A stretch of DNA of 64,000 bases. Source: Oryzisolibacter sp. LB2S. Lineage in GTDB: Bacteria; Pseudomonadota; Gammaproteobacteria; Burkholderiales; Burkholderiaceae_C. This document shows, in pieces, positions 1,514 through 49,961 of the stretch. The position numbers were made by a program, and so were the translations under genes. Each line of letters starts with the position of its first letter. The first letter of the stretch is position 1. The stretch lies in the NCBI RefSeq assembly GCF_040732315.1, contig NZ_CP160388.1, positions 2,508,494 through 2,572,493 of the forward strand. Direction: 5' to 3'. Below the pieces are notes generated by a model. It did not search any database. It was not told the origin of the DNA and was given only the letters and a program-made list of their open reading frames with translations.

Positions 1514-2856
<1,343 letters not shown>

Positions 2857-17339: not shown

Positions 17340-18518
17340 ATGAGTGAACCGAACATTTCCGGCCGCGCCGCCATCGTCGGTCTGGGCGCCACCGAGTTTT
17401 CCAAGAATTCCGGCCGCACCGAGCTGCGCCTGGCCATGGAGGCCACGCTGGCCGCGCTGGCCGACGCCGGCATAGACCCGAGCGAGGTCGAGGGCTTCAG
17501 CTCCTACAGCGTGGACAAGGTGCCCGAGTACGAGATCGCGCGCCTGCTGGGCGCCAAGAGCGTCAAGTTCTTCTCGCAGATCCCGCATGGCGGCGGCGCG
17601 GCCTGCGCGCCGGTGCTGCACGCCGCCATGGCCGTGGCCACGGGCCTGGCCAAGACCGTCGTGGTCTACCGCGCCATGAACGAGCGCAGCTGGTACCGCT
17701 TCGGCACCGGCAGCTACGGCTTCGGCAGCACGCCCATCTTCGACAACGTGAACTACGGCTGGTACATGCCGCACGGCTTTCACACGCCGGCGGCCTGGGT
17801 GGGCATGTTTGCGCGCCGCTACATGCACCGCTATGGCGCGACCAGCGAGGACTTTGGCCGCGTGGCCGTGGCCGTGCGCGACTTTGCCGCCACCAACCCT
17901 GCCGCGTTCTTCTACCAAAAGCCCATCACGCTGGCCGAGCACCAGGCATCGAAGTGGATCGCCGAGCCCCTGCACCTGCTCGACTGCTGCCAGGAAAGCG
18001 ACGGCGCCGTGGCCATGGTGATCACCAGCAGCGAGCGCGCACGCGACATGAAGAACAGGCCCGTGGTCATCAAGGCCGCCTCGCAGGGCATCACCGAGGG
18101 CCAGCAGAGCATGACCTCGTTCTTCCGCGAGGACATCACCGGCCTGCCCGAGATGGGCGTGGTCGCCCGCGAGCTGTATGCGCAGTCGGGCCTCGGCCCG
18201 CAGGACTTCCAGACCGCGGTGATCTACGACCACTTCACGCCCTTTGTGCTCGCGCAGCTCGAGGAATTCGGCTTCTGCCCGCGCGGCGAGGCCAAGGAAT
18301 TCGTGCGCGCCGGCCACCACGCACGCGGCGGCAAGCTGCCCATCAACACCCATGGCGGGCAGCTCGGCGAGGCCTACATCCACGGCTTCAACGGCGTGGC
18401 CGAAGCCGTGCGCCAGGTGCGCGGCACGGCCGTGAACCAGGTGGCCGACGTACGCAATGTGCTGGTCACGGCCGGCACCGGCGTGCCCACCAGCGGTTTG
18501 ATTCTGGGCGCGGCCTGA
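17340..18518 (+). CDS. Thiolase-like steroid side-chain aldolase, Ltp2-like
   Basis: Thiolase-superfamily lipid-transfer protein of 392 residues. It lacks a thiolase nucleophilic Cys at the usual place and instead has the segment YDHFTPFVL (Tyr296) and GEAYIHGFNG (Tyr346). These correspond, with an offset of two, to the two tyrosines I recall as catalytic in Ltp2 (294 and 344). Ltp2 performs retro-aldol cleavage releasing propionyl-CoA from the 22-hydroxy-acyl-CoA and leaving a 17-keto steroid. It works in complex with the DUF35 domain of ChsH2, encoded here at 14800. The GHHARGGKLPINTHGG loop is typical of the family. Confidence 0.9.
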   Translation: MSEPNISGRAAIVGLGATEFSKNSGRTELRLAMEATLAALADAGIDPSEVEGFSSYSVDKVPEYEIARLLGAKSVKFFSQIPHGGGAACAPVLHAAMAVATGLAKTVVVYRAMNERSWYRFGTGSYGFGSTPIFDNVNYGWYMPHGFHTPAAWVGMFARRYMHRYGATSEDFGRVAVAVRDFAATNPAAFFYQKPITLAEHQASKWIAEPLHLLDCCQESDGAVAMVITSSERARDMKNRPVVIKAASQGITEGQQSMTSFFREDITGLPEMGVVARELYAQSGLGPQDFQTAVIYDHFTPFVLAQLEEFGFCPRGEAKEFVRAGHHARGGKLPINTHGGQLGEAYIHGFNGVAEAVRQVRGTAVNQVADVRNVLVTAGTGVPTSGLILGAA

Positions 18519-18563: not shown

Positions 18564-18624
18564 ATTTAGTCAAATCAGGCTCCAACCCATACCAGATAAG
18601 CGCAAGCAGCTATCAACAACGTAG
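18564..18624 (+). repeat. Dispersed short repeat, intergenic copy
   Basis: Contains GGCTCCAACCC, then ATAAGCGCAAGCAGCTATCA, the same layout as the copy in moeA. It fills most of the 159-bp gap between the Ltp2-like and dehydrogenase genes. In the frame used by the genic copies it also reads open (GSNPYQISASSYQQ). Confidence 0.75.
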
Positions 18625-18677
18625 TAATCACGACTACCCCTGCCTGCCCCCATTGCACAAGAAAGCGGCCCCAGCCC

Positions 18678-19859
18678 ATGTTTGTCGATCTCACCCCCGA
18701 GCAGCACCGCCTGCGCCTGCGCGTGCGTGACTATTTCAACGCCCTGATGACGCCCGAGCTGCGCGTGCGCATGCGCGGCGCCGAGGGCGGCGAGGAGTAC
18801 CGCCAGATCGTGCGCCAGATGGGCCGCGACGGCTGGCTGGCCGTGGGCTGGCCCAAGGAGTACGGCGGCCAGGGCCTGTCGGCCACCGAGCAGCTGATCT
18901 TCTTCGAGGAGGCCAACATCGCCGGTGCCCCCCTGCCCTTCGTGACCATCAGCACCGTGGGCCCGGCGCTCATGGCCCATGGCTCGGCGAAGCAGAAGGC
19001 CGAGTTCCTGCCCGGCATCGCGGCCGGCGAGACGCTGTTCGCCATCGGCTACTCCGAGCCCCAGGCGGGCTCGGACCTGGCCACGCTCAAGACCCAGGCG
19101 CGCCTGGAGGGCGACCTGCAGACGGGCCATTTCGTCGTCAACGGCAGCAAGCTGTGGACCTCGAGCATCGAGTCGGCCGACCACATCTGGCTGGCCGTGC
19201 GCACCAGTGCGGACCTGCCGCGCCACAAGGGCATCTCCATCATGATTGCCGACACCAGCGCGGCCGGCTTCTCGCACACGCTGATCGAGACCGTGGGCAA
19301 CTACACGGCCGCCACCTACTACGACAACGTGCAGGTGCCCGCCGAGCGCCTCGTGGGCGAGCTGCACGGCGGCTGGAAGCTCATCACCGCGCAGCTCAAC
19401 CATGAGCGCCTGGGCCTGGGCTCATGGTCCGACAAGGTCTTCGGCCCGTTTGCCAAGGTGCTGGCCTGGGCCAAGGCGCGCGACGAGCAGGGCCAGCGCG
19501 CCATCGACCAGCCCTGGGTGCGCCGCTCGCTGGCCGAGTGCTACACGCGCCTGGAGGCCATGCGCATCACCAACTTCCGCATCGCGGCCGACCTGGAGGC
19601 CGGCGGCATGGACGTGGCCCTGGCCTCGACCACCAAGGTCTATGGCACCGAGAGCGTGCTCGAGATCCTGCGCCGCCTGATGGACATCGTGGGCTCAAGC
19701 GCCCTGGTGCGCGCGGGCAGCAGCGCCTCCTACCTGCTCGGCGAGCTCGAGTACGAGATCCGCGCCAACACCATCAACACCTTTGGCGGCGGCGTCAACG
19801 AAATCCAGCGCGAGCTGATCGCCCAGTTCGGCCTGGGCATGCCGCGCCCGGTGCGCTGA
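18678..19859 (+). CDS. Acyl-CoA dehydrogenase, steroid side-chain type (FadE28-like)
   Basis: Flavin-dependent dehydrogenase of 393 residues starting MFVDLTPEQHRLRLRVRDYF. It has the FAD loop GYSEPQAGSDLATLKTQA and the binding segment VVNGSKLWTSSIESADHIWL, followed by NHERLGLG and the C-terminal NTFGGGVNEIQRELIAQFGLG. It probably forms the FAD-binding half of an alpha2beta2 complex with the protein at 15770, as ChsE1-ChsE2 do. The gap before the gene holds a dispersed repeat, which may partly separate this gene from the upstream block. Confidence 0.88.
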   Translation: MFVDLTPEQHRLRLRVRDYFNALMTPELRVRMRGAEGGEEYRQIVRQMGRDGWLAVGWPKEYGGQGLSATEQLIFFEEANIAGAPLPFVTISTVGPALMAHGSAKQKAEFLPGIAAGETLFAIGYSEPQAGSDLATLKTQARLEGDLQTGHFVVNGSKLWTSSIESADHIWLAVRTSADLPRHKGISIMIADTSAAGFSHTLIETVGNYTAATYYDNVQVPAERLVGELHGGWKLITAQLNHERLGLGSWSDKVFGPFAKVLAWAKARDEQGQRAIDQPWVRRSLAECYTRLEAMRITNFRIAADLEAGGMDVALASTTKVYGTESVLEILRRLMDIVGSSALVRAGSSASYLLGELEYEIRANTINTFGGGVNEIQRELIAQFGLGMPRPVR

Positions 19860-29659: not shown

Positions 29660-29763
29660 TATTCAAATGTCTTTGTCCATAGGCATTTGTGCGAGCGTGT
29701 CGAAATGCCCACACCATGCACGCGCCCAGCACCGAGCGGGGACGGGAGCAGACAAGTGCCTTG

Positions 29764-29808
29764 GAATAAAAAAAGCTTCCAGCCCTTTGTGTACAAGCGC
29801 TGGAAGCT
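29764..29808 (-). terminator. Terminator after purL
   Basis: A 10-bp stem (AGCTTCCAGC/GCTGGAAGCT) with a 15-base loop is followed on the minus strand by a run of seven T residues. It is 21 bp beyond the purL stop. The AAGCGCTGGAAGCTA arm resembles part of the dispersed repeat, so this may be a diverged copy used as terminator. Confidence 0.85.
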
Positions 29809-29828
29809 ATTGTTTCAGTAGTAAAAAA

Positions 29829-32800
29829 TCAGCCCACCCAGCGGCGCGCATTGCGCCAGATGCGCATCCAGGGGCTCAGGGCCTCCAGCCCGCCGGTGGC
29901 GGCCAGGTCCGTCCAGCTCATCTGGATGTTGCGGAAGGCCCGCTCGGGGTGGGGCATCATGGCCGTGAAGCGCCCGTCCTTGGTCGTCACGGCGGTGAGG
30001 CCGCCGGGGCTGCCGTTGGGGTTGAACGGGTACTGCTCGGTCGCGCGGCCATGGTTGTCCACATAGCGCATGGCCGGCACCACGGCGGCCGCGTTGCCGC
30101 GGCGCGCGAAGTTGGCATAGCCCTCGCCATGCGAGACCACGATGGGCAGGCGGCTGCCCGCCATGCCGGCCAGGAAGATGCTGGGCGAATCGAGCACCTC
30201 GACCATGGACAGGCGCGCCTCGAAGCGGTGGCTCTGGTTGGTGGTAAAGCGCGGCCAGGCCTCGGCGCCGGGGATGATGTCGGCGAGCTCGGCAAACATC
30301 TGGCAGCCGTTGCACACGCCCAGGGCAAAGGTGTCGGCGCGGCCGAAGAAGCGCTGGAACTCCTCGGACAGGCGCTCGTTGAAGGTGATGGAGCGCGCCC
30401 AGCCTATGCCCGCGCCCAGCGTGTCGCCGTAGCTGAAGCCCCCGCAGGCGACGACGCCGGCAAAGTCGGCCAGATGTGCGCGGCCGGCCTGCAGGTCGGT
30501 CATGTGCACGTCGTAGGCCTCGAAGCCCGCCTCGGTGAAGGCATAGGCCATTTCCACATGCGAGTTCACGCCCTGCTCGCGCAGCACGGCGACCTTGGGG
30601 CGCGCGAGGTTCAGGAAGGGCGCGGCCACGTTCTCGAGCGGGTCGAAGGCCAGGCTCACATGCAGGCCGGGATTGGCCGGGTCGCCCATGGCGGCATGCT
30701 CGCTGTCGGCACAGACGGGGTTGTCGCGCTGCTGGCAGATCTTCCAGCTCACGGAGTCCCAGACCTGGTGCAGGTCGAACAGGCTGGCGCCAAAGATCTT
30801 CTTGGCGTCGCGCCAGATCTGCAGCTCGCCCTTGCCGGCGTCGATGGCCGAGGCCGCGGGGCGCGTCTTGCCAATGGTGTGGCTGCACTGGATGAGGCCA
30901 TGGTCGCGCAGCGTCTGCATGACGGCGGCGCGGTCTGCCGTGCGGATCTGCAGCACCACGCCCAGTTCCTCGTTGAACAGCGCGGCCAGGGTCTGGGCGT
31001 CGCGCCGGCCGCTGACCTGGGCGCCCCAGTTCTTGCCCTCACCGCTGTCCATGCGGCTGTCGGCAATGCCGTCGCCCTCGGTGACGAGCATGTCCACGTT
31101 GAGCGCCACGCCCACCTGGCCGGCAAAGGCCATCTCGGCCACGGTGGCCAGCAGGCCCCCGTCGCCCTTGTCGTGGTAGGCCAGGATCAGCCCTTGTGCG
31201 CGCAGTGCGTTCACGGCATTGACGAGGGCGATGAGGTCCTTGGCGTCGTCGAGGTCGGGCGTCTCGTTGCCGCTCTGGCCCAGCACCTGGCCCAGGATGG
31301 AGCCGCCCATGCGCGCCTTGCCGCGGCCCAGGTCGATCAGCACCAGGGTGCTGTCCTCTTGCGTAGCGTCGAGCTGCGGCGTGAGCGTGCCGCGCACGTC
31401 CTGCAGCGTGGCAAAGGCGGTGACGATCAGGCTCACGGGCGAGGTGACCTTCTTGAGCGCCCCGCCCTCGCTCCACTGCGTGCGCATGGACAGGCTGTCC
31501 TTGCCCACGGGAATGGAAATGCCCAGGGCCGGGCACAGCTCCATGCCCACGGCCTTGACGGTGTCGTAGAGAGCGGCGTCCTCGCCGGGCTCGCCGCAGG
31601 CGGCCATCCAGTTGGCCGAGAGCTTCACGCGCGGCAGGTCGATGGGCGCGGCCAGCAGGTTGGTGATGGCCTCGGCCACGGCCATGCGGCCCGAGGCGGG
31701 CGCGTTGATGGCGGCCAGCGGCGTGCGCTCGCCCATGGCCATGGCCTCGCCTGCAAAGCCGCGGTAGTCGGCCAGGGTCACGGCCACGTCGGCCACGGGC
31801 ACCTGCCAGGGGCCGACCATCTGGTCACGGTGCGTGAGGCCGCCCACCGCGCGGTCGCCGATGTTGATGAGAAAGCGCTTGGAGGCCACCGTGGGGTGGG
31901 CCAGCACATCGATCACGGCCTGCTGCAGCGCCACGCCGTCGAGCTGCATGGGCGCGAGCTCGCGGCCTACGCGCGTCACGTCGCGCTGCATCTTGGGCGG
32001 CTTGCCGAGCAGCACGTCCATGGGCATGTCCACGGGGTATTTCTGGTCGCCCGCGGCCACGGCCGTGTCCTCGAGCACCAGCCGGCGCTCCTCGGTGGCG
32101 ATGCCGATCACGGCGAACGGGCAGCGCTCGCGCTCGCAGAAGGCCTTGAACTGCTCCAGCGAATCCGGCGCGATGGCCAGCACATAGCGCTCCTGGCTCT
32201 CGTTGGACCAGATCTCCTTGGGCGCCAGGCCCGATTCCTCGAGCTGCACGGCGCGCAGGTCAAAGCGCGCGCCGCGGCCCGCGTCGTTGGTCAGCTCGGG
32301 AAAGGCGTTGGACAGGCCGCCCGCGCCCACGTCGTGGATGGCGAGGATGGGGTTGTCCGCTCCTTGAGCCCAGCAATGGTTGATGACCTCCTGCGCGCGG
32401 CGCTCGATCTCGGGGTTGCCGCGCTGCACGGAGTCGAAGTCCAGCTCGGCCGCGTTCGTGCCCGTGGCCATGGAGCTGGCCGCGCCCCCGCCCATGCCGA
32501 TGCGCATGCCCGGGCCACCGAGCTGGATCAGCAGCGTGCCCGCGGGGAACTCGATCTTCCTGGTGTGGCGGGCATCGATGGTGCCCAGGCCGCCCGCGAT
32601 CATGATGGGCTTGTGGTAGCCGCGGGTGACGTCCCCCACCTGCTGCTCGTACTCGCGGAAATAGCCGCAGAGGTTGGGGCGGCCGAACTCGTTGTTGAAC
32701 GCGGCGCCGCCCAGCGGCCCCTCGGTCATGATCTGCAGGGGGCTGGCGATGTGCTCGGGCCGGCCGACCTCGCTGCCCCAGAGTTTGGAGACGGTGAAGC

Positions 32801-33848
32801 CCGTCAGCCCGGCCTTGGGCTCGGAGCCGCGGCCCGTCGCGCCCTCGTCGCGGATCTCGCCGCCCGCGCCGGTGGCCGCGCCGGGGAAGGGTGAGATGGC
32901 CGTGGGGTGGTTGTGCGTCTCCACCTTCATCAGCACATGGTGGGTTCCACTTCGCTTTTGATAGCTGGGTGCGCTTACACCGCCTGCGCTGGAGTCGAAT
33001 TTGGCATAAAACTGCTCGACGGCGCTGCCCTCCATGATGGAGGCGTTGTCGGCATAGGCGACGATGGTGTGCTGGGGCGAGCAGGCCTCGGTGTTGCGGA
33101 TCATGCCGAACAGGCTCTTGTCCTGCGCCACGCCGTCGATGGTGAACTGGGCGTTGAAGATCTTGTGCCGGCAATGCTCGCTGTTGGCCTGGGCGAACAT
33201 CATCAGCTCCACGTCCGTGGGGTTGCGCTTGAGGCCCGTGAAGGCGCTCACCAGATAGTCGATCTCGTCATCGGCCAGCGCCAGCCCCCAGGCCTTGTTG
33301 GCGGCCTCGAGCGCCGCGCGGCCACCGGCCAGCACATCGACGAAGGCCATGGGCTCGGCCTCAAGCTCGGTGAACAGGCGCTCGGCCTCGGCGCGCGTGG
33401 CGACCACCGATTCGGTCATGCGGTCGTGCAGCAGCGCCGCGATCTGCTGCAGCTGCTCGGCCGACAGCTCGGGCTTGCCGCCCAGCAGCCCGCCCTTGAC
33501 GGCGACGCGGTATTCGGTGATGCGCTCGACGCGGCGCAGCGCCAGGCCGCAGTTGTGGGCAATGTCCGTGGCCTTGGAGGCCCAGGGCGAGACCGTGCCC
33601 AGGCGCGGCGTGACCAGCAGCGCCACGCCGTCATGGGGCCCCTCGTACGGGTCGCCATAGGAGAGCAGCGCGGCCAGGCGCTCGAGCGCGGCGGGCGTGG
33701 GCGCGTCATCCTGCGCCACCAGGTGCACATGGCGCGCGGCCAGGCCTTCGATCTTCGGGTGGATGGCCTGCAGCTGCGGCAGGAGTTGCTGGGCGCGGAA
33801 GTTGCTGAGGGCATTGCCGCCCTCCAGCTGGGTGATGTGCAAGGTCAC
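29829..33848 (-). CDS. purL: Phosphoribosylformylglycinamidine synthase PurL
   Basis: Large single-chain enzyme of purine synthesis that converts FGAR and glutamine to FGAM. It has 1339 residues. The synthetase half has [29 protein letters not shown] and [15 protein letters not shown]. The C-terminal glutamine amidotransferase has its nucleophile in [10 protein letters not shown] and the catalytic His/Glu in [13 protein letters not shown] at 33848 was chosen because it gives the family N terminus [24 protein letters not shown]. Residues ~280-300 ([15 protein letters not shown]) just before the [12 protein letters not shown] motif are encoded by an in-frame dispersed repeat. All motifs on both sides stay in frame. 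Confidence 0.96.
32956..33010 (-). repeat. Dispersed short repeat inserted in frame in purL
   Basis: On the minus strand it reads TCCAGCGCAGGCGGTGTAAG followed by CGCACCCAGCTATCAAAA, a clear relative of the moeA copy. It is read in the same frame as in moeA (pattern x-x-S-S-A-x3-S-A-x-S-Y-Q). Confidence 0.8.
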
Positions 33849-34894: not shown

Positions 34895-37522
34895 ATGTCT
34901 TCACATCCCTCGACGCCCATCGCCACCGACGCCGCACCCCTGTCCGCATTGCGCGACGGCTATCAGCAGGACAAAGCCGCCCTGCTCGCCCGGCTGCAGG
35001 TCGGCGGTGCCTCCACGCGCGGCATACGCAGCCTGCTGCGCCGACTCTCCACGCTGACCGACCAGGTGCTGTGCCGGCTCTGGCGCCAGACCGGCCTGCA
35101 CCAGAACTGTGCACTGGTCGCGGTGGGCGGCTATGGCCGGGCCGAGCTGTTCCCGCATTCGGACGTCGACGTGCTGCTGCTGCTGCCCGACGGCACGCTT
35201 GCCACGGAAGAGGCGACGCGCCAGCCGATCGAGGCCTTCATCGGCAGCTGCTGGGATGCGGGGCTGAGCATTGGCTCGAGCGTGCGCACCGTGAGCGAAT
35301 GCCTGAGCGAGTCGGCCGCCGACGTGACCGTGCAGACGGCCCTGCTGGAGTCGCGCCTGCTGTGCGGCAACGCGGCGCTGTTCGACGCGTTTCGCCAGCG
35401 CTACGACGCGCAGATGGACGCACGCGCCTTCCTCGTCGCCAAGACGCTGGAGATGCGCCAGCGCCACACCAAGTACGAGGACACGCCCTACGCGCTGGAG
35501 CCCAACTGCAAGGAATCGCCCGGCGGCCTGCGCGACCTGCAGCTCATCCTGTGGGTGGCACGCGCCGCGGGCCTGGGGCGCAGCTGGCGCGAGCTGGCCG
35601 CCAGCGGCCTGGCCACGCCGTTCGAGGTGCAGCAGATCGAGCGCAACGAGGCATTGCTCTACCTGATACGCGCCCGCCTGCACCTGCTGGCCGGGCGGCG
35701 CGAGGACCGGCTGGTGTTCGACCTGCAGACCGCCGTGGCCGAAAGCTTTGGCTACCGCTCCACGCCGCCCGAGGGCCAGGGCCTGCCCATGCGCGCGAGC
35801 GAGACCTTGATGCGCCGCTACTACTGGGCGGCCAAGGCCGTGTCGCAGCTCAGCCAGATCCTGCTGCTGGGCCTGGAGGAGCGGCTCAACCCCAGCACGC
35901 AGGAGCTGCGCCCCATCAACGAGCGCTTCTACGACAAGGCCGGTCTCGTGGAAGTGGCCAGCGACGACCTGTACGAGCGCCACCCACACGCCATTCTGGA
36001 GACCTTTCTGCTCTACCAGAGCTCGCCTGCGCTCAAGAGCCTGTCGGCGCGCACGCTGCGCGCGCTGTACAACGCACGCGCGGTGATGGACGCGGGCTTT
36101 CGGCGCGACCCGGTCAACCGCGCGCTGTTCATGCAGATCCTGCGCCAGCCCTCGGGCATCACGCATGCCATGCGGCTCATGAACCAGACCTCGGTGCTGG
36201 GGCGCTATCTCTGGCCCTTCAGGCGCATCGTCGGACAGATGCAGCATGACCTGTTCCACGTCTACACCGTGGACCAGCACATCCTCATGGTGCTGCGCAA
36301 CGTGCGGCGCTTCTTCCTGGCCGAACACGCCCATGAGTACCCGTTCTGCTCGCAGCTGGCCGCGGGCTGGGACAAGCCCTGGATCCTGTACCTGGCGGCG
36401 CTGTTCCATGACATAGGCAAGGGCCGCGGCGGCAACCATTCCGAGATCGGCGCCCAGGAGGTGCGGCGCTTTTGCCGCCAGCATGGCGTCAACGGCGACG
36501 ACGCGCGCCTGGCCGAATTCCTGGTGCGCGAGCACCTGGCCATGAGCCAGGTGGCGCAGAAGCAGGACCTGTCCGACCCCGACGTCATCGCGGCCTTTGC
36601 GCGCCGCGTGGGCAATGAGCGCAACCTCACCGCGCTGTACCTGCTCACCGTGGCCGACATCCGCGGCACCTCGCCCAAGGTCTGGAACGCCTGGAAGGGC
36701 AAACTGCTCGAGGACCTGTACCGCGCCACGCTGCGCGTGCTGGGCGGCCGCGCGCCCGACCCCGCCGCCGAGATCGAGGCGCGCAAGCGCGAGGCGCTGA
36801 TCCTGCTGGCCCTGAGCGCCCTGCCCCACGAGGCGCACAAGCGCCTGTGGGACACGCTGGACGTAAGCTACTTCATGCGCCACGAGGCGCCCGACATCGC
36901 CTGGCACACGCGCCACCTCTCGCGCCATGTGGGCAGCACCCGCGCCATCGTGCGCGCGCGCCTGTCGCTGGCCGGCGAGGGGCTGGAGGTGCTGGTCTAC
37001 GCGCCCGACCGGGCCGACCTGTTCGCGCGCATCTGCGGCTACTTCGACCGCGCGGGCTTCTCCATCCTGGACGCGCGCGTGCACACGGCGCACAACGGCC
37101 ATGCGCTGGACACCTTCCAGGTCGTGGCGACCAGCCAGCCCGGCGCCTACCGCGAGCTCATCCACCTGGTCGAAAACGACCTGCAGCAGGCCATCGAGGC
37201 CGAGGGACCGCTGCCCGAGCCCACACGCCGACGCGTCTCCCGACGCGTGAAAAGCTTCCCCATCGCACCGCGCATCACGCTGCGCCCTGACGAGAAGGCA
37301 CAGCGCTGGCTCATCAGCATCTCGGCCAGCGACCGCGCCGGCCTGCTGTACATGGTGGCGCGCGTGCTCTCGCGCCACGGCCTGAGCGTGCAGCTGGCCA
37401 AGGTCAGCACCCTGGGCGAGCGCGTGGAGGACACCTTTCTGGTGCAGGGCCCCGAGCTGCAGAGCAATGTGCAGCAGATACGCATAGAGACCGAACTGCT
37501 CGAGGCCCTGGCCGATCAATAG
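34895..37522 (+). CDS. glnD: Bifunctional uridylyltransferase/uridylyl-removing enzyme GlnD
   Basis: Nitrogen sensor that adds UMP to PII proteins when glutamine is low and removes it when glutamine is high. It has 875 residues. The nucleotidyltransferase motif is [20 protein letters not shown] (about residue 75). The HD hydrolase motif is [16 protein letters not shown] (about residue 510). Two ACT domains for glutamine sensing are at the C terminus ([19 protein letters not shown] and [20 protein letters not shown]). The ATG at 34895 is used. A TTG at 34883 would add four residues. It follows map by 45 bp. Confidence 0.96.
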
Positions 37523-37548
37523 TCCATCCACAAGTGCCCGGCAAGAAA

Positions 37549-37603
37549 CAATCAAAAATCATAGCTGCTCGCGCTTTTCCAGAGGGCGCTGGAGGCATAT
37601 TTC
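37549..37603 (-). repeat. Dispersed short repeat between glnD and def
   Basis: On the minus strand it reads GCCTCCAGCGCCCTCTGG followed by AAAAGCGCGAGCAGCTATGA. It sits between the convergent ends of glnD and def. The frame equivalent to that in moeA is open here as well (ASSALWKSASSYDF). Confidence 0.75.
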
Positions 37604-37606
37604 GCC

Positions 37607-38146
37607 TCAGGAATCCTCGGTTGCATCGAGGTTGGGGAACAGCACCTCGGTGAAGCCGAACCGCGTGAAGTCGCGCATGCGCATGGGATAGAGCATGCCC
37701 CACAGATGGTCGCATTCGTGCTGCACCACGCGCGCATGAAAGCCGCTCACGGTACGGTCAATGGGGGCACCACGCATGTCGAACCCGGTGTAGCGCACCG
37801 TCTGCCAGCGCGGCACCATGCCGCGCATGCCGGGCACGGACAGGCAGCCCTCCCAGTCGAGCTGCTCCTCCTCGCCCATGGGCGTGACCATCGGATTGAT
37901 GAGCACCGTGCGCGGCACGATGGGCGCATCGGGGTAGCGCGGGTTGGGCGCATCGGAGCCAAACACCACCACCTGCAGATCCACGCCGATCTGCGGCGCC
38001 GCCAGACCCGCGCCGTTGGCGGCCTGCATGGTGTCGAGCAGGTCGGCCAGCAGGGCGCGCAGCTCGTCGGTATCGAATTCGGTCACGGGGCGGGCCACGC
38101 GCAGCAGGCGCGGGTCACCCATCTTCAAGATGGTGCGCTGGGTCAT
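37607..38146 (-). CDS. def: Peptide deformylase
   Basis: Metalloenzyme that removes the formyl group from nascent N-terminal formylmethionine. It has 179 residues. The three motifs are [22 protein letters not shown] (metal Cys) and [11 protein letters not shown] (HExxH-type with metal His residues). The ATG at 38146 gives [15 protein letters not shown], the usual family start. It is convergent with glnD, and a short repeat lies in the gap. Confidence 0.95.
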
Positions 38147-38240
38147 GTCGGTAAACGCTGGCGGCAATGGTGCGCCAAAGAGCTTGATGGCATCCGGGCC
38201 ATGGAGCATACCCCCGCGCAAGACCGGCACAATAGCCAGC

Positions 38241-38731: not shown

Positions 38732-38807
38732 TCCCCGATAGCTCAGTCGGTAGAGCGACGGACTGTTAATCCGCAGGTCCCTGGTTCGAGCCCAGGTCGG
38801 GGAGCCA
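38732..38807 (+). tRNA. tRNA-Asn (GTT), copy 1
   Basis: A 76-nt cloverleaf with CCA encoded. The acceptor stem TCCCCGA pairs with TCGGGGA, the D-loop has AGCTCAGTCGGTAGAGC, the anticodon is GTT in ACTGTTAAT, and the T-arm is CTGGTTCGAGCCCAG. A TATAAT box is at 38715-38720, 11 bp upstream. Confidence 0.97.
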
Positions 38808-38856
38808 CCGTACAGCCCTTGCAATTGCACAAGGGAACGTCAAGAAAACCGAACAT

Positions 38857-38932
38857 TCCTCAATAGCTCAGTCGGTAGAGCGCCGGACTGTTAATCCGTA
38901 GGTCCCTGGTTCGAGCCCAGGTTGAGGAGCCA
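38857..38932 (+). tRNA. tRNA-Asn (GTT), copy 2
   Basis: A 76-nt tandem paralogue of the previous gene, 49 bp downstream. Acceptor stem is TCCTCAA/TTGAGGA, differing from copy 1 by paired compensatory changes. Anticodon arm and T-arm are nearly identical and CCA is encoded. It is probably co-transcribed with copy 1. Confidence 0.97.
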
Positions 38933-41717: not shown

Positions 41718-41792
41718 TGAACCTCCTAGCAATGGACAAACATAACACCAATCGCAGTCTTTTGGTCGTCCGCCTTGGATGAGGAGCCTTCG

Positions 41793-42695
41793 GTGACTCA
41801 ACCCCAGCGCGTCGAGAGCTTGAGCCACGCCCAGCGCGAGCGGCTGGCCTACATCGACTTCCGGCTCTACTTCTTCGGTGAGATCGGTCGCCCGGACCTG
41901 ATTGAGCGCTTCGGCGTGGCTCCGGCAGGCGCGACACGCGACTTGGCGCTGTACCGGGAAATCGCGCCACAGAACATCACCTTTGACGGTAGCAACAAGA
42001 TCTACCGGATCGGGCAGGCGTTCTCCCCGCTGTTCGACCACGCATCGCAGCGCGTGCTGTCGGCCCTAGCTCTGGGCTTCGGCGATGGTGCGAACGGCGC
42101 AACGCAACCGCTGCTGCCGTGCGAGTCGCCCACCGCACTGAGCACCCCCAGGATGGATGTGCTGGCCCCGGTCTGCCGAGCCATCCACGCCAAGCGGCCA
42201 GTGGCCATTCGCTACCACTCGATGAGCAGCGGAGAGTCCGAGCGGGTCATCGTGCCCTTTGCGCTGGTGGATACCGGCCTGCGCTGGCACGTCCGGGCCT
42301 TTGATCGCAAGAGCGGAGAGTTTCGGGATTTCGTCGTCACCCGCATCGAAGCGCCAACGCTGCTCGACGAGGAGCCACAGGTCAACGAACGGCCGGACAA
42401 CGACATCCAGTGGACGCGCATCGTCGAGATGGACTTCGTGCCGCACCCGCGCCTTGAACGCCCCGAGATCATCAAGATGGACTATGGGATGACCGACGGC
42501 TCGATCCGGATGCGCGTTCGTGCCGCCGTTGCGGGGTACATGCTGCTGCGCTGGAGCGTGGACTGCTCGCCCGACCACCGTCTCAAGGAAGAACAGTACC
42601 GCCTGTGGCTCAGCGATCCGCTGGCGCTGTACGGCGTCGAGAACGCCAAGCTGGCCCCAGGCTACCAAGCCCCGAGCGGCCCAAAGAAACGATAG
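41793..42695 (+). CDS. WYL-domain transcriptional regulator (BrxR/CapW-like)
   Basis: Regulator of 300 residues with an N-terminal winged helix-turn-helix (residues ~10-70, IDFRLYFFGEIGRPDLIERF), a central WYL domain (residues ~120-190, AIRYHSMSSGESERVIVPFALVDTGLRWHVRAFD) and a C-terminal dimerisation region. This three-part layout is that of BrxR/CapW-type repressors found at the front of many phage-defence operons. The two genes that follow encode defence-type proteins. GTG at 41793 is chosen because AGGAG precedes it by seven bases. A TTG at 41775 is in frame. A perfect palindrome upstream suggests autoregulation. Confidence 0.88.
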   Translation: MTQPQRVESLSHAQRERLAYIDFRLYFFGEIGRPDLIERFGVAPAGATRDLALYREIAPQNITFDGSNKIYRIGQAFSPLFDHASQRVLSALALGFGDGANGATQPLLPCESPTALSTPRMDVLAPVCRAIHAKRPVAIRYHSMSSGESERVIVPFALVDTGLRWHVRAFDRKSGEFRDFVVTRIEAPTLLDEEPQVNERPDNDIQWTRIVEMDFVPHPRLERPEIIKMDYGMTDGSIRMRVRAAVAGYMLLRWSVDCSPDHRLKEEQYRLWLSDPLALYGVENAKLAPGYQAPSGPKKR

Positions 42696-42710
42696 GAAAG
42701 AAGAATACCA

Positions 42711-44462
42711 ATGGCCAAGACACTTGAAGCCCACGACAAACTGATCCGGGAGATCTTCGAAGGCAGCTACCAGTTCGAGATTCCGGACTACCAGCGCCCC
42801 TACGCCTGGACAACCGAGCAGGCCACAGAGCTGTTCGATGATCTGTACTCGGCGATGCAGGACGCGCGTGTCTCGGGGGCCAGCAGCCAATACTTCCTGG
42901 GCAGCATCGTTCTGATCAAGAACGACCGGGACCCGAAGTCATCGGTGGTCGACGGCCAGCAACGCCTGTCCACGCTCACGATGCTATTCGCCGTGTTGCG
43001 CACCGTGATGCCGGATGCTGCAGACGACATCACCGACTTCCTCTACAAAAAGGGCAAGGTCAGTCTTGGCGAGAAGAACGAGTACCGCCTGACAGCTCGC
43101 GAGGAGGATGCCGACTTCTTCCGCACCAACATTCAGGAACCGGGTGGCATCGCACAGTTGGTCGCCAGTACGGACAAGCTGAAAGACAGCCGTCTACGTT
43201 ACCGTGAAAACGCCACGCTGCTGCTCGAAAAGGCCAAGGCGCTTCCGCCTGCCGACCTCATTGCGCTGTGGCAGTTCCTCGCCAACGACTGTTCGCTGGT
43301 TGTCATCTCCACGCCCGACCTCGAAGCCGCATACCGCATCTTCTCCGTACTCAACAATCGGGGGCTCGACCTCGCGCCTATCGACATCATCAAGGCGCAG
43401 GTGCTTGGCCTGATCCGTACCACGGCAGGCGAAGTCAAAAGCCGCGCATACGCGAAAGAGTGGAGCCGGATCGAAAGCTCACTGGGTCGTGACGCCTTCG
43501 GTGACCTGTTTGGCCACATTCGCAGCATCTATGCCAAGAAGAAGCAGAAGTACATCCTGGTCAAGGAGTTCCAGGAGCACGTCACCGAGTACAAGGCCCC
43601 TATCGACCTCGTCGACAAGGTCATCAAACCCTATGCCGAAGTGTGGGACTTCGTGCGCGATGCCGACTTCGAGGCCACCGAGCACGCTGAAACCATCAAC
43701 GAGCACTTGTCGTGGCTCAATCGTGTGGACTTCAAGGACTGGGTGCCCCCAGCACTTGTTTATTTCAAGCGCTTCCGGCAGCAGCCCAAACTGCTTGCCG
43801 AATTTTTCCAGTCACTGGAACGCCTGACCTACTTCCTGCTGGTCACCAAGGTCGGCATCAACGAGCGCATCGAAACCTACGCTGCGCTCACCAAGGAAAT
43901 CGAACCGGAGACCTTCAAGGGAAATCTGGTTGCGCTCACCACGCTGGCACTGACAGACGCGCAAAAGCGCAAGTTCGTCGCGGCACTCGATGGAGACGTG
44001 TACGACGATCTGCCCAAGGCACGGATGGCGCTCGTCTTGCGTCTTGAGTCCTTGGTGCGCGCGCCCGGCGTGCAGCTTCAAGATGCCGTGTCGCTGGAGC
44101 ACGTCCTGCCGCAAACACCGCCCGACAGTTCGGACTGGATCAAGTGGTTCCCGGATGAAGACGAGCGCGATGGCTGGACGCACCGTTTGGCCAATCTGGT
44201 TCCGCTGGATAGGAACAAGAACTCGTCTGCCAGCAATTACGACTTTGCCAAGAAGAAAGATGCCTACTTCAGAGGCAAGGGCACCGCTTCACCCTTCGTG
44301 CTGACGCAGGAAGTCAGATCGGAAAGCGAGTGGACGCCCACGCTGCTGACTGCACGGCAAAAGCGCCTTGTAAACGTATTGAGCACGCATTGGAATCTTG
44401 AGATTGCAGCTGACAACAGCCTTCCTGCTGCTGCGGTAACGGCGGGAGGTTTGACATCGTGA
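42711..44462 (+). CDS. DUF262/DUF1524 protein (GmrSD-like type IV restriction)
   Basis: Protein of 583 residues. The N-terminal DUF262 domain has [20 protein letters not shown] and the catalytic [16 protein letters not shown] motif (DGQQR, ParB/Srx-like). The C-terminal DUF1524 domain carries the HNH-type nuclease pattern [10 protein letters not shown] then [17 protein letters not shown]. This single-chain fusion resembles GmrSD and BrxU enzymes that cut modified phage DNA. It follows the WYL gene by 15 bp and overlaps the hsdM start, so it is part of one defence operon. Confidence 0.88.
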
Positions 44463-45883: not shown

Positions 45884-46741
45884 AGCTTGAGCATGCTTGG
45901 CGGAGATTGGACGGACGGAACGATGACGGATTTCAAGTGGCGCCATTTCCAGGGTGATGTGATCCTGTGGGCGGTGCGCTGGTATTGTCGCTATCCGATC
46001 AGCTATCGCGACCTTGAGGAAATGCTGGCGGAACGCGGCATTTCGGTCGACCATACGACGATCTATCGCTGGGTCCAGTGCTACGCCCCGGAGATGGAGA
46101 AGCGGCTGCGCTGGTTCTGGCGGCGTGGCTTTGATCCGAGCTGGCGCCTGGATGAAACCTACGTCAAGGTGCGGGGCAAGTGGACCTACCTGTACCGGGC
46201 AGTCGACAAGCGGGGCGACACGATCGATTTCTACCTGTCGCCGACCCGCAGCGCCAAGGCAGCGAAGCGGTTCCTGGGCAAGGCCCTGCGAGGCCTGAAG
46301 CACTGGGAAAAGCCTGCCACGCTCAATACCGACAAAGCGCCGAGCTATGGTGCAGCGATCACCGAATTGAAGCGCGAAGGAAAGCTGGACCGGGAGACGG
46401 CCCACCGGCAGGTGAAGTATCTCAATAACGTGATCGAGGCCGATCACGGAAAGCTCAAGATACTGATCAAGCCGGTGCGCGGTTTCAAATCGATCCCCAC
46501 GGCCTATGCCACGATCAAGGGATTCGAAGTCATGCGAGCCCTGCGCAAAGGACAGGCTCGCCCCTGGTGCCTGCAGCCCGGCATCAGGGGCGAGGTGCGC
46601 CTTGTGGAGAGAGCTTTTGGCATTGGGCCCTCGGCGCTGACGGAGGCCATGGGCATGCTCAACCACCATTTCGCAGCAGCCGCCTGATCGGCGCAGAGCG
46701 ACAGCCTACCTCTGACTGCCGCCAATCTTTGCAACAGAGCC
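45862..46741 (+). mobile_element. IS6100, copy 1
   Basis: 880-bp IS6-family element with 14-bp perfect terminal inverted repeats GGCTCTGTTGCAAA (45862-45875) and TTTGCAACAGAGCC (46728-46741). It truncates hsdM on its left. Confidence 0.97.
45923..46687 (+). CDS. tnpA: IS6100 transposase
   Basis: DDE transposase of the IS6 family, 254 residues, the length expected for IS6100. A helix-turn-helix region (ISYRDLEEMLAERGISVDHT) is followed by the catalytic triad: Asp in WRLDETYVKVRG, Asp in LNTDKAPSY and Glu in NVIEADHGKLK. It acts by replicative transposition with cointegrate formation. The ATG at 45923 (MTDFKWRHFQ) matches the known start. An upstream in-frame start at 45887 lies between the IR and the gene. 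Confidence 0.96.
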   Translation: MTDFKWRHFQGDVILWAVRWYCRYPISYRDLEEMLAERGISVDHTTIYRWVQCYAPEMEKRLRWFWRRGFDPSWRLDETYVKVRGKWTYLYRAVDKRGDTIDFYLSPTRSAKAAKRFLGKALRGLKHWEKPATLNTDKAPSYGAAITELKREGKLDRETAHRQVKYLNNVIEADHGKLKILIKPVRGFKSIPTAYATIKGFEVMRALRKGQARPWCLQPGIRGEVRLVERAFGIGPSALTEAMGMLNHHFAAAA

Positions 46742-46945
46742 CTTGAGTCCACGCTAGATCTATCTCATCTGCGCAAGGCAGAACGTGAAGACGGCCGCCC
46801 TGGACCTCGCCCGCGAGCGCCAGGCGCACGAGGCCGGCGCGCGGACCCGCGCCACGGCCCACGAGCGGACGCCGCAGCAGGAGCGCCAGAAGGCCGCCAG
46901 AGAGGCCGAGCGCGGCCGTGAGGCTTGGACGCTAGGGCAGGGCAT
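46742..46945 (+). pseudogene. Relaxase-like remnant of the Tn1721-type tet region
   Basis: A short open stretch from GTG 46785 encodes charged, helical sequence (DLARERQAHEAGARTRATA, then HERTPQQERQKAAREAERGR). It resembles relaxase C-terminal tails that are annotated beside tetR(A) in Tn1721-derived segments, as I recall. The frame closes with TAG upstream toward the IS junction and runs on into the terminator downstream. It is a fragment without expected function. Confidence 0.45.
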
Positions 46946-46974
46946 GAAAAAGCCCGTAGCGGGCTGCTACGGGC
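46946..46974 (-). terminator. Rho-independent terminator downstream of tetR(A)
   Basis: A 9-bp stem (GCCCGTAGC/GCTACGGGC) with a 5-base loop is followed on the minus strand by TTTTTC. It is 85 bp past the tetR stop. The rest of the 317-bp gap (46742-47058) holds only the remnant listed above. Confidence 0.85.
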
Positions 46975-47058
46975 GTCTGACGCGGTGGAAAGGGGGAGGG
47001 GATGTTGTCTACATGGCTCTGCTGTAGTGAGTGGGTTGCGCTCCGGCAGCGGTCCTGA

Positions 47059-47709
47059 TCAATCGTCACCCTTTCTCGGTCCTTCAACGTTCCTGACAAC
47101 GAGCCTCCTTTTCGCCAATCCATCGACAATCACCGCGAGTCCCTGCTCGAACGCTGCGTCCGGACCGGCTTCGTCGAAGGCGTCTATCGCGGCCCGCAAC
47201 AGCGGCGAGAGCGGAGCCTGTTCAACGGTGCCGCCGCGCTCGCCGGCATCGCTGTCGCCGGCCTGCTCCTCAAGCACGGCCCCAACAGTGAAGTAGCTGA
47301 TTGTCATCAGCGCATTGACGGCGTCCCCGGCCGAAAAACCCGCCTCGCAGAGGAAGCGAAGCTGCGCGTCGGCCGTTTCCATCTGCGGTGCGCCCGGTCG
47401 CGTGCCGGCATGGATGCGCGCGCCATCGCGGTAGGCGAGCAGCGCCTGCCTGAAGCTGCGGGCATTCCCGATCAGAAATGAGCGCCAGTCGTCGTCGGCT
47501 CTCGGCACCGAATGCGTATGATTCTCCGCCAGCATGGCTTCGGCCAGTGCGTCGAGCAGCGCCCGCTTGTTCCTGAAGTGCCAGTAAAGCGCCGGCTGCT
47601 GAACCCCCAACCGTTCCGCCAGTTTGCGTGTCGTCAGACCGTCTACGCCGACCTCGTTCAACAGGTCCAGGGCGGCACGGATCACTGTATTCGGCTGCAA
47701 CTTTGTCAT
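47059..47709 (-). CDS. tetR(A): Tetracycline repressor TetR, class A
   Basis: Tetracycline-responsive repressor of tet(A), 216 residues, the class A length. The N-terminal helix-turn-helix is GLTTRKLAERLGVQQPALYWHFRNK. The C-terminal drug-binding domain is of the TetR_C type. It is divergent from tet(A), and both tet operators lie in the intergenic region. The ATG at 47709 gives MTKLQPNTVIRAALDL, as in known TetR(A). The coding sequence appears complete. Confidence 0.96.
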   Translation of the reverse strand: MTKLQPNTVIRAALDLLNEVGVDGLTTRKLAERLGVQQPALYWHFRNKRALLDALAEAMLAENHTHSVPRADDDWRSFLIGNARSFRQALLAYRDGARIHAGTRPGAPQMETADAQLRFLCEAGFSAGDAVNALMTISYFTVGAVLEEQAGDSDAGERGGTVEQAPLSPLLRAAIDAFDEAGPDAAFEQGLAVIVDGLAKRRLVVRNVEGPRKGDD

Positions 47710-47715
47710 GCTTGA

Positions 47716-47767
47716 CACTTTATCGCTGATAAACATAATATGTCCACCAACTTATCAGTGATAAAGA
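47716..47767. promoter_or_regulatory. tet operators and divergent tetR/tetA promoter region
   Basis: Two TetR sites: CTTTATCGCTGATAAA at 47718-47733 and CTTATCAGTGATAAAG at 47751-47766. For tet(A), TTGACA (47712-47717) and TAATAT (47736-47741) form a promoter with 18-bp spacing that spans the first operator. Confidence 0.9.
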
Positions 47768-47814
47768 ATCCGCGCGTTCAATCGGACCAGCGGAGGCTGG
47801 TCCGGAGGCCAGAC

Positions 47815-49014
47815 GTGAAACCCAACAGACCCCTGATCGTAATTCTGAGCACTGTCGCGCTCGACGCTGTCGGCATCGGCCTGATTATGCCGGTGCTGCC
47901 GGGCCTCCTGCGCGATCTGGTTCACTCGAACGACGTCACCGCCCACTATGGCATTCTGCTGGCGCTGTATGCGTTGATGCAATTTGCCTGCGCACCTGTG
48001 CTGGGCGCGCTGTCGGATCGTTTCGGGCGGCGGCCGGTCTTGCTCGTCTCGCTGGCCGGCGCTGCTGTCGACTACGCCATCATGGCGACGGCGCCTTTCC
48101 TTTGGGTTCTCTATATCGGGCGGATCGTGGCCGGCATCACCGGGGCGACTGGGGCGGTAGCCGGCGCTTATATTGCCGATATCACTGATGGCGATGAGCG
48201 CGCGCGGCACTTCGGCTTCATGAGCGCCTGTTTCGGGTTCGGGATGGTCGCGGGACCTGTGCTCGGTGGGCTGATGGGCGGTTTCTCCCCCCACGCTCCG
48301 TTCTTCGCCGCGGCAGCCTTGAACGGCCTCAATTTCCTGACGGGCTGTTTCCTTTTGCCGGAGTCGCACAAAGGCGAACGCCGGCCGTTACGCCGGGAGG
48401 CTCTCAACCCGCTCGCTTCGTTCCGGTGGGCCCGGGGCATGACCGTCGTCGCCGCCCTGATGGCGGTCTTCTTCATCATGCAACTTGTCGGACAGGTGCC
48501 GGCCGCGCTTTGGGTCATTTTCGGCGAGGATCGCTTTCACTGGGACGCGACCACGATCGGCATTTCGCTTGCCGCATTTGGCATTCTGCATTCACTCGCC
48601 CAGGCAATGATCACCGGCCCTGTAGCCGCCCGGCTCGGCGAAAGGCGGGCACTCATGCTCGGAATGATTGCCGACGGCACAGGCTACATCCTGCTTGCCT
48701 TCGCGACACGGGGATGGATGGCGTTCCCGATCATGGTCCTGCTTGCTTCGGGTGGCATCGGAATGCCGGCGCTGCAAGCAATGTTGTCCAGGCAGGTGGA
48801 TGAGGAACGTCAGGGGCAGCTGCAAGGCTCACTGGCGGCGCTCACCAGCCTGACCTCGATCGTCGGACCCCTCCTCTTCACGGCGATCTATGCGGCTTCT
48901 ATAACAACGTGGAACGGGTGGGCATGGATTGCAGGCGCTGCCCTCTACTTGCTCTGCCTGCCGGCGCTGCGTCGCGGGCTTTGGAGCGGCGCAGGGCAAC
49001 GAGCCGATCGCTGA
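47815..49014 (+). CDS. tet(A): Tetracycline efflux MFS transporter Tet(A)
   Basis: Inner-membrane proton/tetracycline-Mg antiporter with about 12 helices. At 399 residues from the GTG at 47815 (VKPNRPLIVILSTVALDAVG) it matches class A. Motif A is GALSDRFGRRPVLL. Long stretches are as in Tn1721/RP4 Tet(A) from memory, including DGDERARHFGFMSACFGFG and the terminal SGAGQRADR. Regulated by divergent tetR. The 67 bp between its stop and the second IS6100 (49015-49081) contain no gene. Confidence 0.97.
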   Translation: MKPNRPLIVILSTVALDAVGIGLIMPVLPGLLRDLVHSNDVTAHYGILLALYALMQFACAPVLGALSDRFGRRPVLLVSLAGAAVDYAIMATAPFLWVLYIGRIVAGITGATGAVAGAYIADITDGDERARHFGFMSACFGFGMVAGPVLGGLMGGFSPHAPFFAAAALNGLNFLTGCFLLPESHKGERRPLRREALNPLASFRWARGMTVVAALMAVFFIMQLVGQVPAALWVIFGEDRFHWDATTIGISLAAFGILHSLAQAMITGPVAARLGERRALMLGMIADGTGYILLAFATRGWMAFPIMVLLASGGIGMPALQAMLSRQVDEERQGQLQGSLAALTSLTSIVGPLLFTAIYAASITTWNGWAWIAGAALYLLCLPALRRGLWSGAGQRADR

Positions 49015-49081
49015 TAGAGGTTTATAGCGGCTTCGTTCCCTTCCGCAACCGTCAGCATGATCTGCTCCACATGCTCGCGGC

Positions 49082-49961
49082 GGCTCTGTTGCAAAAATCG
49101 TGAAGCTTGAGCATGCTTGGCGGAGATTGGACGGACGGAACGATGACGGATTTCAAGTGGCGCCATTTCCAGGGTGATGTGATCCTGTGGGCGGTGCGCT
49201 GGTATTGTCGCTATCCGATCAGCTATCGCGACCTTGAGGAAATGCTGGCGGAACGCGGCATTTCGGTCGACCATACGACGATCTATCGCTGGGTCCAGTG
49301 CTACGCCCCGGAGATGGAGAAGCGGCTGCGCTGGTTCTGGCGGCGTGGCTTTGATCCGAGCTGGCGCCTGGATGAAACCTACGTCAAGGTGCGGGGCAAG
49401 TGGACCTACCTGTACCGGGCAGTCGACAAGCGGGGCGACACGATCGATTTCTACCTGTCGCCGACCCGCAGCGCCAAGGCAGCGAAGCGGTTCCTGGGCA
49501 AGGCCCTGCGAGGCCTGAAGCACTGGGAAAAGCCTGCCACGCTCAATACCGACAAAGCGCCGAGCTATGGTGCAGCGATCACCGAATTGAAGCGCGAAGG
49601 AAAGCTGGACCGGGAGACGGCCCACCGGCAGGTGAAGTATCTCAATAACGTGATCGAGGCCGATCACGGAAAGCTCAAGATACTGATCAAGCCGGTGCGC
49701 GGTTTCAAATCGATCCCCACGGCCTATGCCACGATCAAGGGATTCGAAGTCATGCGAGCCCTGCGCAAAGGACAGGCTCGCCCCTGGTGCCTGCAGCCCG
49801 GCATCAGGGGCGAGGTGCGCCTTGTGGAGAGAGCTTTTGGCATTGGGCCCTCGGCGCTGACGGAGGCCATGGGCATGCTCAACCACCATTTCGCAGCAGC
49901 CGCCTGATCGGCGCAGAGCGACAGCCTACCTCTGACTGCCGCCAATCTTTGCAACAGAGCC
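49082..49961 (+). mobile_element. IS6100, copy 2
   Basis: 880 bp with the same 14-bp terminal repeats (49082-49095 and 49948-49961). It has the same orientation as copy 1 and, as far as I can read, is identical to it. It truncates the 5' end of the gene that follows. Confidence 0.97.
49143..49907 (+). CDS. tnpA: IS6100 transposase
   Basis: Identical in amino-acid sequence to the transposase of copy 1 (254 residues, DDE catalytic residues intact). Having two identical direct copies permits homologous excision of the tet segment and further IS6100-mediated deletions of adjacent DNA. Confidence 0.96.
   Translation: MTDFKWRHFQGDVILWAVRWYCRYPISYRDLEEMLAERGISVDHTTIYRWVQCYAPEMEKRLRWFWRRGFDPSWRLDETYVKVRGKWTYLYRAVDKRGDTIDFYLSPTRSAKAAKRFLGKALRGLKHWEKPATLNTDKAPSYGAAITELKREGKLDRETAHRQVKYLNNVIEADHGKLKILIKPVRGFKSIPTAYATIKGFEVMRALRKGQARPWCLQPGIRGEVRLVERAFGIGPSALTEAMGMLNHHFAAAA

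Follow-up and report, generated by a model that had tools for sequence, protein, structure and literature searches.

The intergenic repeat near 18.6 kb raises the question of whether its family carries a reading frame kept free of stops, as the initial annotation proposed, and of what holds such a family in the genome. The family is real. It consists of an imperfect palindromic DNA repeat of ~57 bp with the consensus GTCAAATYGGCCTCCAGCGCTTGTCCRGCAAGCGCNRGCAGCTATCAATTYARTAGT, present in about 300 copies in the genome, five of which lie in the window (the 64-kb stretch of DNA analysed here). Its 16-base core, AAGCGCNNGCAGCTAT, has 303 matches with at most one mismatch in the 3.84-Mb chromosome, compared with 4 for the reversed pattern that served as a control. 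These matches divide into 150 on the forward strand and 153 on the reverse strand, and an apparent chromosome-wide strand bias was discarded as a listing artefact. A collection of 186 distinct copies was made from 625 kb of chromosome sequence, the genome's own copies being gathered largely via the core. The 186 copies score 31–79 bits, where random sequence reaches a maximum of −6. No Rfam family fits the repeat.

Run over the window, a profile trained on 34 copies gives exactly five strong matches (E = 2e-16 to 3e-13, scores that are somewhat flattered because all five were in the training set), and the next match has E = 0.06. It is in effect a sequence profile, RNAalifold having retained only three base pairs, and each of 150 candidates scored with it has E < 1e-9. 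The same profile matches intergenic and genic copies; both belong to one dispersed family, as had been supposed, and the two intergenic copies originally named (18564–18624 and 37549–37603) are confirmed. The first occupies 18569..18626 on the plus strand (profile match 18565–18635, 58.5 bits, E = 4.6e-16) and is flanked by a lipid-transfer/thiolase-like gene (17340–18518) and an acyl-CoA dehydrogenase-like gene (18678–19859); it is found in the sister genome G304 and is missing from G302. The second, at 37548..37605 on the minus strand (37539–37609, 59.5 bits, E = 2.2e-16), lies between the convergent genes for glnD (34895–37522) and peptide deformylase (37607–38209, minus strand). The AGCAGCTATCA end occurs three times in the window with at most one mismatch, against 0.53 expected.

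The 39–64 kb part of the window, which contains insertion-sequence and phage-like genes, holds none of the five copies. Two identical IS6-family copies there flank tetR and the tetracycline efflux gene tet(A) (892 bits, above the NCBIfam cut-off of 840), forming a composite transposon at 45887–49907. The left IS6-family copy lies next to hsdM, a type I restriction gene that is apparently shortened at its 3′ end. Beside hsdM, a WYL-domain regulator is followed by a GmrSD-type restriction endonuclease (41775–44462), a probable defence cluster. Tandem tRNA-Asn(GTT) genes (38732–38932) directly precede a stretch in which codon-usage scores are low, and 54–63 kb holds phage-tail-like genes; the tRNA pair, the low-scoring stretch and the tail-like genes suggest an integrated element. 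A TPP riboswitch, above the gathering score, was also observed at positions 35–135 of locus L052, ~1.4 kb from one repeat copy.

The element has a GC content of 50% in a 69% GC genome and is conserved unevenly along its length. Conservation peaks in the right half, at AAGCGC and AGCTAT (91–100%), and column frequencies show the left arm, GGCCTCCAGCGC, to be weaker. The core is asymmetric, AAGCGC-NN-GCAGCTAT, with AAA, GCC and TAG satellites, and a T-rich, TTTGA-like stretch usually lies upstream of the element. Several blocks are exchanged for their own reverse complement among copies: CCA/TGG in the loop and AAA/TTT and CA/TG at the sides, at profile columns 8–10, 29–31 and 50–54. We infer that this alternation is the trace expected of loop inversion in a hairpin. 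The strongest couplings between columns involve adjacent bases, TT or CC at columns 25–26. The CC variant, which makes for a weaker hairpin, is commoner in genic copies (14:7, CC to TT) than in intergenic ones (42:87).

The frame in which the moeA and purL copies are read (the SASSY frame, offset 0) had been described as conserved and stop-free between genes as well. The counts do not sustain this. Scored over 58 bases, 83 of 143 intergenic copies (58%) leave it open and the other 60 (42%) carry a stop, and two rival frames do as well: offset 1 is open in 82 copies (57%), offset 2 in 51, and the three reverse frames in 70, 85 and 5, the best of these reaching 59%. Averaged over all six frames, openness is 44%; base composition alone predicts 40%. 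In 64 intergenic copies from two sister species, the forward frames are open in 33, 32 and 17 (52%, 50% and 27%). Five of six frames, on both strands, exceed column-shuffled controls; since neighbouring columns are coupled, shuffles alone are misleading as a test of a frame. For the two named copies the earlier reading was half right, as the element at 18569–18626 is open throughout in the SASSY frame and that at 37548–37605 meets a TGA directly after KSASSYDF and is thus not stop-free to its end.

Copies within genes do not favour the SASSY frame either. Among 19 same-strand genic copies with a reliable host gene, 14 are read at offset 1 and three in the SASSY frame, a distribution that departs from openness alone in favour of offset 1 (Monte Carlo p = 0.017). 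The proposal that a non-autonomous element keeps its own frame open for insertion into genes could draw on several frames being stop-free in the majority of copies and on the existence of in-frame genic copies. Set against the stops in 42% of copies, the equal openness of rival frames, a six-frame mean near the expectation from composition and the use of another frame by most genic copies, it appears very unlikely. On the six-frame stop counts, compared with column shuffles and composition, we reject a conserved stop-free frame. In our preferred reading, set out below, the open frames are a by-product of the element's sequence together with a filter on copies that landed in genes, which have to be free of stops in the frame concerned.

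Some copies are nevertheless read in frame within proteins, as first proposed for moeA and purL. The moeA copy (gene 1510–2856) lies at 2440..2497 on the plus strand (profile match 2436–2506, 58.2 bits, E = 5.6e-16) and is translated as a 16-letter peptide stretch. The purL copy (gene 29829–33848, minus strand) lies at 32948..33005 on the minus strand (32939–33009, 49.3 bits, E = 2.7e-13) and yields a 17-letter stretch. MoeA orthologues were taken from titled genome records of Acidovorax, Diaphorobacter, Rhodoferax, Polaromonas, Ottowia and others; one loop contains the element in 36 of 79, and 43 lack it. The site comprises 29 residues here and four in Escherichia coli MoeA (~25 extra), and the predicted structure has a low-confidence loop between two strands at the element. 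For PurL, 16 of 30 orthologues carry the element, always in the same frame. Because the element is found in many MoeA and PurL orthologues across genera, the two SASSY-frame genes represent two ancient, inherited insertions.

The offset-1 copies encode a peptide that recurs in DapE, TruB, WaaA and other proteins, for example PASQAQAAIKNEV; those in dapE, truB and waaA lie at chromosome positions (G000:C1) 1759565, 1176177 and 1905234, respectively. As a result, unrelated core enzymes share peptides of ~20 residues of the type KQKMxPAPASQAQAAIKNEV. In ThiL the copy is on the opposite strand.

Most copies are found between genes, close to 3′ ends. Of the 186, 143 are intergenic and 29 genic (16%), the remaining 14 overlapping the end of a gene; a simple codon-usage gene finder written for the analysis puts the coding share of the sequence at 90%. 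In 88 of 141 intergenic copies, no more than 25 nt separate the core from the stop codon of a gene oriented towards it. Convergent gene pairs are over-represented and divergent pairs under-represented at the copies (29:9, against 44:52), and this skew is repeated in the 64 intergenic copies of the two sister species (20:4, against 43:96).

Positions behind stop codons and in convergent intergenic regions are what would be expected if the family consisted of transcription terminators, or of stabilizers of mRNA 3′ ends, retained for that role. The copy directly downstream of purL (29766..29823, plus strand; profile match 29762–29832) supports this locally. Its sequence on the purL strand is AGCTTCCAGC...GCTGGAAGCT with T7 after it; the 10-bp stem and T7 give it the shape of an intrinsic terminator, and judging from these letters it likely serves transcription termination. 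The initial annotation was correct in assigning the purL terminator to a copy of the repeat; its suggestion that this copy is diverged is not upheld, as it is a full-length, ordinary member of the family (57.1 bits, E = 1.2e-15). Compared with shuffled sequence, copies also show greater folding stability (mean z = −2.5). Across the family, however, T-tracts after the stem show no excess on the side receiving transcription (p = 0.15 and 0.25), about one-third of copies lose two pairs through CC instead of TT at columns 25–26, and genic copies keep the core too. The stem pairs show no covariation beyond expectation, so that no RNA or DNA structure emerges as selected, and with three pairs kept by RNAalifold we also set aside a model of RNA secondary structure. 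Termination as a general role of the family was rejected for lack of a link between T-tracts and orientation, although the purL copy has the expected features, and we consider it improbable that the family as a whole is held for termination or message stabilization.

Comparison with relatives indicates that the copies are old. The flanks of 19 of the genome's own copies were mappable in two sister species, and at 18 of these loci the element occupies the same site. No clean empty site was found among the 19 mapped loci, and we therefore rejected recent transposition; an apparent empty site in genome G300 proved to be an eroded remnant of the element. In a comparison with MITEs, which have terminal inverted repeats and, at clean empty sites, a target-site duplication, the family presents an imperfect palindrome, and at moeA and purL the edges of the element are blurred by age. 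Copies have been lost in some relatives, so single copies are dispensable.

The bases of the element have not diverged equally at these orthologous sites. Between orthologous copies, differences affect 13.6% of comparisons at columns carrying more than 1 bit of family information and 45.7% at those below 0.4 bit (rho = −0.77). Because the genome's own copies were gathered largely via the core, the comparison was repeated on two sister species with whole-element scores, free of core ascertainment; the values are 16.4% for the core and 35.7% for variable columns (rho = −0.58), with a few loci counted from both sides and some low-scoring pairs that may be false copies. Core bases thus change two to three times less than variable bases. 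The same holds for synonymous choice within moeA, where the inserts encode Tyr by TAT in 26 of 28 cases, compared with 46 of 245 (19%) elsewhere in the same genes (p = 4e-15), and Ser by AGC in 27 of 28, compared with 45% (p = 3e-8), p-values that overstate independence because the orthologues are related. Synonymous conservation of this kind goes beyond selection on the protein and therefore needs either selection at the nucleotide level or continual replacement by copies. Continual replacement of old copies by others, through conversion, could mimic constraint.

A rival reading is that of a REP-like selfish element mobilized by the RAYT-like Y1 transposase, its uniformity being due to copying and to replacement at old sites and not to a host function. 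The genome contains one Y1_Tnp (RAYT-like) gene, whose stop codon is immediately followed by a single diverged copy of the repeat; several relatives have a copy in the same place. RAYT genes are described as flanked by two inverted REPs, and a REP often stands immediately after the rayt stop (PMC2817692), as the copy does here; the palindrome and the 3′-adjacent placement of the family are likewise REP-like. Populations of REP-type repeats can last for millions of years (PMC8049555). Several features speak against such an origin of the uniformity. The flanks of the RAYT-like gene carry one copy, downstream only, here and in most relatives with a match (upstream only in one relative), so that no inverted copy is found across the gene. 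The gene scores 72.2, below the NCBIfam cut-off of 80, and column frequencies contain no GT(A/G)G head before the hairpin, RTAG being found at the opposite (3′) end.

The distribution of the gene points the same way. Relatives with 0–3 core matches carry the same Y1 gene, whose presence does not track repeat number, and simple co-occurrence is uninformative as nearly all family members have the gene. Gene-adjacent copies are orthologous and may represent a single event. An autonomous transposase sharing the ends of the repeat, which the initial annotation had raised, is accordingly not borne out: the sole Y1 gene is accompanied by a single diverged copy, on one flank, and the same gene occurs in relatives with almost no repeats. 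We regard a selfish element still maintained by copying as an unlikely explanation, albeit one to be taken seriously.

The repeat is centred on the Comamonadaceae. Of 151 genomes sampled from this family, 23 reach 20 or more core matches and most stay at background level, and outside the family the sample contains only single exact core matches. The nearest named MoeA relatives are from Diaphorobacter and Acidovorax. A core that is conserved across species and present in many copies, in both orientations, within and between genes, might be a DNA uptake sequence for natural transformation. Known DNA uptake sequences are ~10 bp long. All 30 exact core matches that we inspected sit in longer copies of the element, none standing alone, and a literature search found no paper tying uptake sequences to Comamonadaceae; a function in uptake is therefore extremely unlikely. 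The search, with most subscription journals outside its reach, also found no prior description of the repeat. The ‘palindromic repeats’ of Rhodoferax papers are CRISPR and not the present repeat.

Our preferred reading, to which we give about even chances, is that of an old, Comamonadaceae-centred REP/MITE-like repeat that is now held as a sequence-specific site. It builds on the observed copy number, placement and retention at orthologous sites and on the slower change of the core, synonymous sites of moeA included. The repeat would have spread long ago, mainly to positions just after stop codons and rarely into permissive protein loops, and its copies would have been inherited vertically since. 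The asymmetric core and its satellites may be recognized by a putative DNA- or RNA-binding factor, and selection for this recognition would retain the copies, the one downstream of purL probably working as a terminator in addition. More tentatively, and with the balance somewhat against it, the family could constitute a genome-wide site for a putative host factor in many Comamonadaceae, with nucleotide selection holding loci between species even in the loops of core enzymes.

Short palindromic repeats are commonly regarded as selfish or neutral. The hundreds of copies described here keep their loci between species, the variable bases diverging heavily and the core not, and MoeA keeps DNA letters beyond what its amino acids alone require. 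The purpose of REP-like repeats thereby becomes a testable question in free-living bacteria, and the family adds a case outside the Rickettsiales of a palindromic repeat that has become part of core enzymes.

Three known systems resemble the repeat in part. Rickettsia palindromic elements (RPEs) are 105–150 bp long and lie between genes and in frame inside protein genes, nearly half of them being genic (PMC10969869, PMC2229807). The present family shares with them a palindromic repeat found between genes and in frame within conserved protein genes. It differs in its length (~57 bp), copy number (~300), host (Comamonadaceae) and genic share (16%), in having no single peptide frame, as genic copies are spread over no fewer than five of the six frame/strand classes with a preference for offset 1, and in its nucleotide-level conservation at orthologous sites. 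The beta-proteobacterial repeat element (BRE) is 75–91 bp long, 69% GC and tandem-prone, with 1–29 copies per genome (PMC3110155). Like BRE, the present element is a short, mostly intergenic repeat with some genic copies in overlapping host families, and it is set apart from BRE by description, being ~57 bp long, 50% GC and dispersed in ~300 copies. REP/RAYT systems share with it a short imperfect hairpin in hundreds of copies, mostly intergenic near 3′ ends, and a RAYT-like gene with a copy directly after the stop. The present family differs from them in lacking a GT(A/G)G head before the hairpin and a pair of inverted copies around the gene, in a gene score below the curated cut-off and in repeat numbers that do not follow the presence of the gene.
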